Source of the DNA: an uncultured Alphaproteobacteria bacterium
Lineage (GTDB): Bacteria; Pseudomonadota; Alphaproteobacteria; Rs-D84
Direction: 5' to 3'
Assembly (NCBI GenBank): GCA_947168075.1
Contig: CAMVKK010000003.1
Span: 1 to 42,509 of the forward strand
Length of the DNA stretch: 42,509 nucleotides
The first letter of the stretch is position 1, and each line of letters starts with the position of its first letter. The notes beneath the pieces are model-generated. The model was given only the letters and a program-made list of their open reading frames with translations, was not told the DNA's origin and did not search any database. Of this stretch, positions 13,072 through 15,102 are shown one piece after another. The translations under genes and the position numbers were made by a program.

Positions 13072-14844
13072 TTAATTTTTATCCCTGATTTTAATATGGA
13101 CATCGCGTAGTTGTTGTTCGGTAACCTCGTTCGGGGAACCCATTAACAAATCTTGACCGCGTTGGTTCGCCGGGAACAAAACTGTTTCACGTAAACTTTC
13201 ACCGGTACCCAATATTTCAGAAATCAATCTGTCGATACCGAACGCGAACCCGCCGTGCGGTGGTGCGCCATATTGGAACGCGGTATACAGCGCGGAAAAG
13301 TTCTTTTCAACCGCTTCTATTGGATAGCCCGCAATATCAAAGCACTTTTTCATAACCTCTGGATTATAATTACGAAGTCCCCCACTGCACATTTCAATAC
13401 CGTTTATAACCATATCGAATTGCGCCGCCTTAATTGAAAACGGATCACGTGTTGTTAAATCTTCGACCGAATCAATAATCGGGTACGAGAACGGGTTATG
13501 CGTGAACTTTGGCGCACCACCACGATCTTCGTCTGGTTCAAAGAACGGGAAATTGTCAACCCAACACAACGCAAAGTCGCGCGGGTTAACCAATCCCAAA
13601 TCTTCGCCCAACTTGTTACGCAGTTTACCGGCGGCCTTGGCTGCGACCTCTTCTTCATCACAGACAAAGAACAACGACGCATTATCGCCCGCGATTTCAT
13701 GCAGTTTTGCAACACGTGCCGCATCCAACTTTTTCGCAACTGGACCTTTGGCTTCGTCCGCAAATACGATGTATCCCAATCCACCAAGTCCCAATTCTTT
13801 GGTTGCATATTCGCCCAATTTATCAAACCACGAACGCGGTTTATCGGCACTGTTTGGTGCCGGAATCGCACGAACAACCGCGCCATTTTCAATTGCGTTT
13901 GCAAATATACCAAATTCAGAACCACGGAATATCTCTGTTACATCACTTATCAAAATCGGGTTGCGCATATCAGGTTTATCTGAACCATATTTTAACATTG
14001 CTTCGTCAAACGAAATATGCGGAATTTCCGGATATACATTTGCGTCCGGCGCAAAAGTTTTTATCATTTCCGGTATAAGCGTTTCACCAACCTTGTGAAT
14101 TTCTGGCAAATCAACAAAGGACATTTCCACATCCAATTGATAGAATTCCAGCAAACGATCTGAACGCAAATCTTCGTCACGGAAACACGGCGCAATTTGG
14201 AAATAGCGATCAAAACCGGACACCTGAATCAATTGCTTGAACATCTGGGGTGCCTGGGGCAATGCATAGAATTTACCGTGATTCAAACGCGATGGCACAA
14301 GGAAGCAACGCGCACCTTCGGGACTGTCCGCGGTAAGCAGTGGTGTTTGAAATTCTGAAAAGCCCATATCCCACATTTTATCACGAATCCATTTTACCAT
14401 TTTATTGCGCATTAAAATATTGTGGTGCAATTTTTCACGGCGCAAATCCAAGAAACGATATTTATAGCGCAATTCCTCACTGGTATCATCATCACCGAAC
14501 ACCTGGAACGGCAGAGTTTCCGCCGCGGTTAAAACCTTCCACGATTGCGCCTGGATTTCGATTTCCCCGGTTGGGATTTTATCATTAATTTGTGATGCGT
14601 CACGCGCCACAACCGTACCAGTAATTTGAATAACGGATTCAGGGCGAACTTTTTCCAACGCCTCGTTACCGCCATCAAACACAATCTGGGTAATACCATA
14701 ATTATCGCGCAAATCGACAAACAACAGCGAACCATGGTCGCGTTTACGATGCACCCAGCCCGACAAAGTTACAGTTTCACCGACATTTTTTGCGGTTAAT
14801 TCCCCGCATGTGTGCGTTCTGTATTTAGATTTCAAAGATAACAT
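13072..14844 (-). CDS. aspS: Aspartyl-tRNA synthetase
   Basis: 590 aa from the ATG at 14844, exactly the usual bacterial AspRS length. Class II synthetase charging tRNA-Asp. N-terminal OB-fold anticodon domain (YRTHTCGELTAKNVGETVTLSGWVHRKRDHGSLLFVDLRD), motif 2 FRDEDLRSDRLLEFYQLD, the bacterial GAD insertion domain (~residues 280-420), and motif 3 GGFAFGIDRL followed by FPANQRGQDLLMGSP. The start is set by the AGGGGT ribosome site (14854-14849); the longer frame would begin inside the leader. Upstream lie a T-box-like RNA and tRNA-Thr on the same strand, with no terminator visible between them. Regulation by tRNA-Asp charging is inferred from that leader. Confidence 0.96.
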   Translation of the reverse strand: MLSLKSKYRTHTCGELTAKNVGETVTLSGWVHRKRDHGSLLFVDLRDNYGITQIVFDGGNEALEKVRPESVIQITGTVVARDASQINDKIPTGEIEIQAQSWKVLTAAETLPFQVFGDDDTSEELRYKYRFLDLRREKLHHNILMRNKMVKWIRDKMWDMGFSEFQTPLLTADSPEGARCFLVPSRLNHGKFYALPQAPQMFKQLIQVSGFDRYFQIAPCFRDEDLRSDRLLEFYQLDVEMSFVDLPEIHKVGETLIPEMIKTFAPDANVYPEIPHISFDEAMLKYGSDKPDMRNPILISDVTEIFRGSEFGIFANAIENGAVVRAIPAPNSADKPRSWFDKLGEYATKELGLGGLGYIVFADEAKGPVAKKLDAARVAKLHEIAGDNASLFFVCDEEEVAAKAAGKLRNKLGEDLGLVNPRDFALCWVDNFPFFEPDEDRGGAPKFTHNPFSYPIIDSVEDLTTRDPFSIKAAQFDMVINGIEMCSGGLRNYNPEVMKKCFDIAGYPIEAVEKNFSALYTAFQYGAPPHGGFAFGIDRLISEILGTGESLRETVLFPANQRGQDLLMGSPNEVTEQQLRDVHIKIRDKN

Positions 14845-14848
14845 TTTG

Positions 14849-15000
14849 ACCCCTTTTTTAACATCGGGCGCAAAAATCAGATGGATTTTGGCACCCTTTT
14901 TAAGATTCCGCAGGGGCGCAGATTTCTGCGCGGTGCCACCCCGCATTTATTACTTTTAACTGGGTTTTGGAACTCTGTGTTTGTCAGACACTTCACCGCC
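14849..15000 (-). promoter_or_regulatory. T-box-like leader RNA of aspS (candidate tRNA-Asp sensor)
   Basis: On the transcript strand, GCGGGG (14944-14939), the 7-nt bulge TGGCACC (14938-14932), GCGCAG (14931-14926), loop AAAT, CTGCGC (14921-14916), CCCTGC (14915-14910). The inner 6-bp helix is perfect, and the outer 6 bp pair with one G-U, leaving exactly the T-box UGGNACC bulge. In T-boxes UGGN pairs with the tRNA NCCA end; N = C here calls for discriminator G73, which is that of tRNA-Asp. TGGCACC can instead pair perfectly with GGTGCCA (14895-14889), freeing CCCCT (14916-14912) to pair with the ribosome site AGGGG (14854-14850). An upstream hairpin GTGT/ACAC (14991-14977) exposes GAC, an Asp codon, in a 7-nt loop. 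No U-tract terminator is seen, so translational control is inferred. A full canonical Stem I is not recognisable. Confidence 0.72.
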
Positions 15001-15028
15001 CCGCCCCCGAAAAAACTTTTTACTTTTG

Positions 15029-15102
15029 TGGTGCCCTAAGCAAGAATCGGACTTGCGACTCGTCCTTACCAAGGACGTGTTTTACCACTAGACTATTAGG
15101 GC
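15029..15102 (-). tRNA. tRNA-Thr (GGT anticodon)
   Basis: 74 nt with encoded CCA. Acceptor GCCCTAA/TTAGGGC, discriminator A, anticodon stem CGTCC/GGACG with loop TTGGTAA (anticodon GGT), T-arm GCAAG/CTTGC with loop TCCGATT. It reads ACC and ACU codons. It has its own consensus promoter and lies 184 nt upstream of aspS on the same strand. Confidence 0.92.

Follow-up and report, generated by a model that had tools for sequence, protein, structure and literature searches.

In the four described classes of T-boxes (I-IV), tRNA binding is augmented by an elbow motif, by Stem II, or by both (PMC10482949). In the structural literature, the elbow motif or Stem II is regarded as necessary for a T-box to keep its grip on the tRNA, and Stem III as necessary for detecting the tRNA 3' end. 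Antiterminators without Stem III gave no appreciable tRNA binding, and the aminoacyl group was described as being sensed sterically by a G-U wobble at the foot of helix A2 (PMC7583486), while loss of IIA/B lowered the binding of an ileS T-box more than 1000-fold (PMC10482949). A survey of the phyla with T-boxes listed Firmicutes, Actinobacteria, Chloroflexi, Deinococcus-Thermus and Geobacter, and Alphaproteobacteria were not among them (PMC3766115).

Here we describe the leader of aspS in a 42,509-nt stretch of DNA (the window) from an uncultured alphaproteobacterium of the GTDB order Rs-D84. The nearest named relatives of the source genome are rumen and gut Alphaproteobacteria MAGs, including Candidatus Enterousia, whose group corresponds to this order and has reduced genomes without complete amino-acid biosynthesis pathways (PMC12306168). 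An earlier note on this DNA had called the leader a T-box, a call upheld by conservation, covariation and the match to tRNA. The leader is very probably a minimal translational T-box for uncharged tRNA-Asp or tRNA-Asn that gates the Shine-Dalgarno (SD) sequence; there are no binding or expression data.

The aspS leader and the T-box bulge

The leader lies between a tRNA gene and aspS, and contains one antisequestrator.

13072..14844 (-): aspS, aspartate--tRNA ligase, bacterial type (NF001750, 716.8 bits, cut-off 443)
14842..15028 (-): aspS leader RNA, from the tRNA-Thr end to the aspS start codon; the aspS start is kept in relatives
15029..15102 (-): tRNA-Thr(GGU), same strand as aspS and directly upstream; A73, unfitting as ligand
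14909..14945 (-): antisequestrator, i.e., helix A1, UGGCACC bulge and helix A2 (RF00230 partial alignment, covariation, scan)
14932..14938 (-): T-box bulge UGGCACC; UGGC is complementary to the tRNA 3' GCCA (G73); invariant in 86/86 leaders

The start codon of aspS is the ATG at 14844-14842 (-). An in-frame 5' extension to 14946 (an ORF of 624 aa) was rejected as coding sequence, as the open frames of relatives often stop at or near the conserved ATG. A tRNA-Thr was found upstream of the leader in 13-14 of 76 relatives, and the one in the window ends in ...UUAGGGC-A-CCA, in agreement with the A73 read previously.

The letters and coordinates given in the earlier note for the helices, the bulge, the AAAT loop and the GAC at 14985-14983 were all confirmed. 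On the reverse strand, the outer helix (GCGGGG at 14944-14939 with CCCTGC at 14915-14910) and the inner helix (GCGCAG at 14931-14926 and CTGCGC at 14921-14916, closed by AAAT) were both exact. When both strands of the whole window were scanned for TGGNACC with flanking and inner helices of at least 5 bp, only the aspS leader site among 16 TGGNACC words met the helix criterion; the chance expectation of such a site is 0.03 per window (60 dinucleotide-preserving shuffles). The search with RF00230 that the earlier note had recommended was only partly successful: by cmscan, 14941-14913 aligned with the antiterminator part (model 188-215), but the score of 20.1 bits (E = 0.014) fell well short of the gathering threshold of 93, and the remaining model has no counterpart in the leader. 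Since only this part aligned, and at such a score, standard annotation would miss the element. Matches of the leader to RF02057, ceN115 and similar Rfam entries were at chance level and were dismissed.

Conservation and covariation in related leaders

For comparison, aspS leaders were collected from 59 genomes belonging to the genus, together with those of named MAGs. All 86 close leaders (genus and near relatives) keep GGUGGCACCGCGC and their helices covary, so that the outcome named beforehand as refuting the T-box, related aspS leaders in which bulge and helices are not conserved, did not occur. The motif was not seen near aspS in 51 leaders of more distant Alphaproteobacteria (protein identity ≤58%).

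Without guidance, RNAalifold recovered Stem I and the A1/A2 stem from 41 diverse leaders. In the alignment of these leaders 89.6% of cells were paired, compared with 75.0 ± 0.9% after shuffling, and the covariation score was 0.488 against 0.202 (0/500 shuffles). Both sides changed in 15 of the 23 pairs, giving 175 such cells versus 54 in the shuffles. Helix A1 was paired throughout (100%) and showed compensatory changes. At its base, helix A2 had G-C in 41/41 rows (columns 79 and 102), and not the G-U wobble that is a criterion of T-boxes. Relatedness inflates these covariation figures; a control with slid partners, which retains the relatedness, left 33-53% paired and destroyed the signal. 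A covariance model of the element (R1) had matches in 163 of the family's 183 genomes, representing 11 of its 13 genera. Elsewhere in the order R1 gave weak matches only, and in the class sample there were few matches beyond the genus, all weak; weak matches in other genomes (E 0.01-1), mostly without the bulge, were left uncounted. Folding of the leader as a single sequence gave no convincing T-box structure (z = -1.5; the MFE pairs other regions). The comparative evidence, unlike the single-sequence fold, shows the T-box structure.

Stem I, specifier and linker

Upstream of the antisequestrator, a short Stem I is followed by a linker.

14998..15005 (-): 5' strand of the Stem I basal (C) helix; pairs with the strand starting at 14973, covaries; the R1 match starts here
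14993..14997 (-): kink-turn-like element, 3-nt bulge GGT and then GA; GA opposite GA in 74/76 leaders
14980..14988 (-): 9-nt loop at the apex of Stem I, with the specifier, UCUGACAAA; AC invariant at positions 5-6, only G or A at position 4
14983..14985 (-): specifier codon GAC (Asp), complementary to anticodon GUC; GAC in 65/76 leaders, AAC in 11/76
14969..14979 (-): 3' side of Stem I, with CACA (NC helix), GA and the C-helix 3' strand GUUCC (covariation and RNAalifold)
14946..14968 (-): linker replacing Stem II, IIA/B and III, with the conserved purine-rich AAGUAAUAAA; no RNAalifold helix

Stem I consists, in order, of a variable basal helix, the 3-nt bulge, GA/GA, a freely varying pair, 3 bp and the 9-nt loop. 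Pairs 3-6 of the basal helix were paired in 75-93% of the 76 leaders, compared with 43-51% when shuffled, and the pair next to the GA/GA step is variable and non-Watson-Crick in the leaders of relatives. Judged from its sequence, Stem I bears the signature of a kink-turn below the specifier loop. The earlier placement of GAC in a 7-nt loop remains readable in the window, with 4 bp, but the relatives show 3 bp and a 9-nt loop. Position 3 of the loop is U in 64/76 and position 7 is A in 72/76 leaders, and positions outside 4-6 vary more. With this U and A, the loop UGACA could form up to 5 bp with U33-A37 of tRNA-Asp, which is the complementary UGUCA in the tRNAs of relatives. Stem I terminates in the specifier loop without the elbow-binding distal part, and the Class I/II criterion is not met.

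The earlier note had inferred a short, possibly Stem-I-reduced sensor; short it is, but the reduction goes further, with Stem II, IIA/B and Stem III also gone. In the 41-leader alignment and by RNAalifold, Stem II with its S-turn and the IIA/B pseudoknot are absent from the minimal form. As to Stem III with its flanking purine string, RNAalifold gave no helix between Stem I and A1; the purine-rich AAGUNAUAAA persists. Among the alignment positions of the linker, A58 and A59 are invariant, and A51, A52, G53, T54 and A56 are conserved in at least 90%.

The probable tRNA ligand

From the C of the bulge the earlier note had deduced a ligand with G73, namely tRNA-Asp. In relatives the tRNA-Asp does have G73, which fits the C of UGGC, but the ligand need not be tRNA-Asp alone, because tRNA-Asn also has G73 and about one in seven leaders carries AAC. 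The comparison rests on tRNAs of relatives and not on those of the source genome, since neither tRNA-Asp nor tRNA-Asn was found in the window's own assembly (82% complete). No AsnRS above the family cut-off was found in 59 genomes of the genus (0/59), and GatB was present in 35 of 39 genomes, the window's genome included. In a lineage without AsnRS and with GatB, charging of both tRNA-Asp and tRNA-Asn must fall to AspRS unless there is a second AspRS; this would account for Asn specifiers upstream of aspS and supports the reading of tRNA-Asn. The leader probably responds to tRNA-Asp and/or tRNA-Asn; binding data are lacking.

Proteins of about 340 aa resembling AsnRS (E about 1e-40) were seen in three genomes (G042, G051, G054) and may be asparagine synthetase A-like paralogues. 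At two loci (L175, G018:C2; L207, G006:C11), a tRNA-Asn 3' part with CCA and without the 5' half was observed separate from the intact gene; these fragments may be the attachment-site remnant of an integrated element.

A proposed Shine-Dalgarno switch

Three strands between the antisequestrator and the start codon could form the switch.

14890..14895 (-): anti-T-box GGUGCC; partner is the T-box GGCACC (OFF) or the downstream anti-SD (ON); 69/76 leaders
14866..14871 (-): anti-SD strand GCGCCC; covaries with SD
14848..14853 (-): Shine-Dalgarno region GGGGUC (sequence and covariation with anti-SD)

From A1 to the SD, 69 of the 76 leaders have GGUGCC, which is complementary to GGCACC of the T-box, then a C-rich strand and then the SD. 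The SD:anti-SD duplex has a mean energy of -6.60 kcal/mol, compared with -5.81 ± 0.17 kcal/mol for shuffled sequences, and 0/2000 shuffles reach it. Compensations on both strands (ACACC/GGUGU, CGCC/GGCG and CGCCC/GGGCG) were observed in several leaders. Of 10 aspS leaders from the family's other genera, 8 have an SD that itself resembles GGUGCC, a T-box complement. From these sequences, the switch of the genus seems to elaborate on a direct pairing of SD and T-box.

In the mechanism we propose, where tRNA binding, aminoacyl discrimination and regulation are all inferred, the kink-turned Stem I hairpin would present its apical loop with GAC or AAC to the anticodon of tRNA-Asp or tRNA-Asn. The G73-C-C-A end of an uncharged tRNA would pair with UGGC and stabilize the A1/A2 antisequestrator; GGUGCC could then pair with GCGCCC, leaving the SD free for AspRS to be made (ON). 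With charged tRNA, the T-box GGCACC would pair with GGUGCC, and the freed GCGCCC would pair with the SD and switch translation off. Thermodynamic modelling of the ON and OFF states gave a median unpaired SD of 0.27 vs 0.20, with ON above OFF in 56/69 leaders. The predicted effect is right in sign but only weakly supportive, and was not relied on.

Alternative explanations

A transcriptional T-box, in which the antiterminator competes with an intrinsic terminator as in most Firmicutes, would also be consistent with the antiterminator-type fold, and archaeal-type tyrS T-boxes of the order do end in a terminator and U-tract. However, the window sequence has no U-tract after the leader hairpins, the competing strand covaries with the SD, and the SD of the sister genera is itself the T-box complement. 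These three observations together support translational control and make the transcriptional reading very improbable. The antiterminator fold described earlier was thus borne out but not its role against a terminator, the SD/anti-SD covariation indicating a platform for SD sequestration. In E. coli thrS, the leader mimics tRNA and binds the synthetase in an autoregulation. That the aspS leader likewise mimics tRNA-Asp and is bound by AspRS could be suspected for a gene that encodes an aminoacyl-tRNA synthetase and has a leader hairpin of anticodon-arm size. We give this very little credence, as the loop bears a codon (GAC/AAC) instead of the anticodon GUC, mimicry would leave the UGGCACC bulge and the A1/A2 helices without a role, and the same module with AAC precedes a different gene, that of aspartate--tRNA(Asn) ligase.

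The leader may also be a relic, with the T-box fold kept as a constitutive SD hairpin and tRNA sensing lost together with Stem II, IIA/B and Stem III. The absent parts are indeed those that laboratory T-boxes need, and the predicted ON/OFF contrast is modest. Against this, the specifier AC, the UGGCACC and the linker AA are invariant and every helix has compensatory changes, family-wide, which argues for purifying selection on exactly the parts that contact tRNA and leaves a relic quite unlikely. A minimal translational T-box remains the preferred reading.

Other T-boxes in the order and class

The earlier note knew of no established alphaproteobacterial aspS T-box, and we found no report of T-boxes in Alphaproteobacteria in the open-access literature; T-boxes do, nevertheless, occur in other Alphaproteobacteria with small genomes. 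RF00230 at E ≤ 1e-4 matched 7 of 385 sampled Alphaproteobacteria, in the order Rs-D84 and families f94, f95 and f120, and its gathering score was reached in 0/201 genomes of the order. Segments resembling Stem II and the pseudoknot were found in aspS T-boxes of genus g12 and families f3 and f94; labels of Stem II, IIA/B and III in relatives reflect resemblance in sequence only, without a tested fold.

A second type in the family (L327-L335, L260 (+), L271 and L288) precedes the gene of aspartate--tRNA(Asn) ligase, has an AAC specifier and is of the longer form, with Stem II-, IIA/B- and III-like segments. The gene, a class II synthetase of about 440 aa, was considered as AsnRS, a candidate rejected because NCBIfam gives aspartate--tRNA(Asn) ligase. 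In these T-boxes CCUUGUGUU pairs with AACACAAAGG across the SD (-9 to -12 kcal/mol). The specifier before this ligase is AAC in 13/14 (counted by eye), and AAC/GAC usage differs between aspS and the ligase (Fisher p = 2e-8, uncorrected for phylogeny). In one genome (L260) the two T-boxes are divergent neighbours, and in genus g7 (L321) the minimal form with AAC stands before a gene like that of the ligase (by eye, from the first residues). A duplication between the two genes is possible. Since relatives keep fuller class III-like T-boxes, the simplest reading of the minimal form is a reduction of such a T-box within the family.

In a different family of the order, an aspS leader (L262, G200) has UGGCACC, GAC in a 5-6-nt loop and an IIA/B-like CGGGUAAGCCCGUUAUC. 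Three loci (L280, L283 and L285, in G200, G197 and G199) carry a UGGUACC T-box with an intrinsic terminator and U-tract before an archaeal-type TyrRS (PRK08560). Such tyrS T-boxes occur in families f5 and f6 of the order, and L280 scores 90.4 bits with RF00230, slightly below the Rfam cut-off. The three loci suggest that tyrS and its T-box were horizontally acquired. A T-box of 110 bits, over the cut-off, with a terminator precedes a DAHP-synthase-like gene at L310 (G417:C1:135170-135410), in an alphaproteobacterial genome of 1.5 Mb (family f120).

Comparison with known T-boxes

The aspS element extends T-boxes to Alphaproteobacteria, where the T-boxes within one order grade from a class III-like to the minimal form, and charge-sensing is retained in gut genomes of about 1 Mb without complete amino-acid biosynthesis pathways (PMC12306168). 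An element that is strongly conserved throughout the family, yet without elbow motif, Stem II and Stem III, allows direct tests of what tRNA reading and aminoacyl sensing minimally require. Opinion is evenly balanced on whether it represents a fifth T-box architecture, i.e., a functional sensor of about 95 nt without elbow motif, Stem II, IIA/B and Stem III, in which a duplex of up to 5 bp between the specifier loop and the anticodon loop (UGACA with U33-A37), along with an unpaired purine stretch, compensates for these losses, and which reads both tRNA-Asp and tRNA-Asn for a non-discriminating AspRS.

The bulge with A1/A2, the discriminator match, the specifier, the kink-turn (inferred without structural data) and the competing sequestrator meet the criteria of a T-box. 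Since these core features are met and Stem III, the A2 G-U and the Rfam threshold are not, the element is an unclassified variant of the T-box. It has no distal Stem I, Stem II, IIA/B, Stem III or A2 G-U, a combination unlike the four described classes, and it fits none of them.

Class II glyQS has a similar single-stranded linker in place of Stem II, but its Stem I is long and carries the elbow motif, and it has kept both Stem III and a terminator (PMC10482949). The class III ileS T-box of Nocardia farcinica shares the short kink-turned Stem I with the specifier in the apical loop, the lack of an elbow-binding motif, SD sequestration and the UGGNACC antisequestrator (PMC10482949, PMC10651847). 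In contrast to ileS, the aspS element has no Stem II S-turn, IIA/B pseudoknot or Stem III, its loop is 9-nt and not 5-6-nt, its A2 base is G-C and not G-U, and it belongs to a different phylum, gene and tRNA. T-boxes of aspS and of the aspartate--tRNA(Asn) ligase gene in further genera and families within this order and class (L264, L282, L288, L311 and L327-L335) share UGGCACC, the short Stem I, AAC/GAC and mostly SD sequestration, but still have segments like Stem II, IIA/B and Stem III, and may be the ancestral form.
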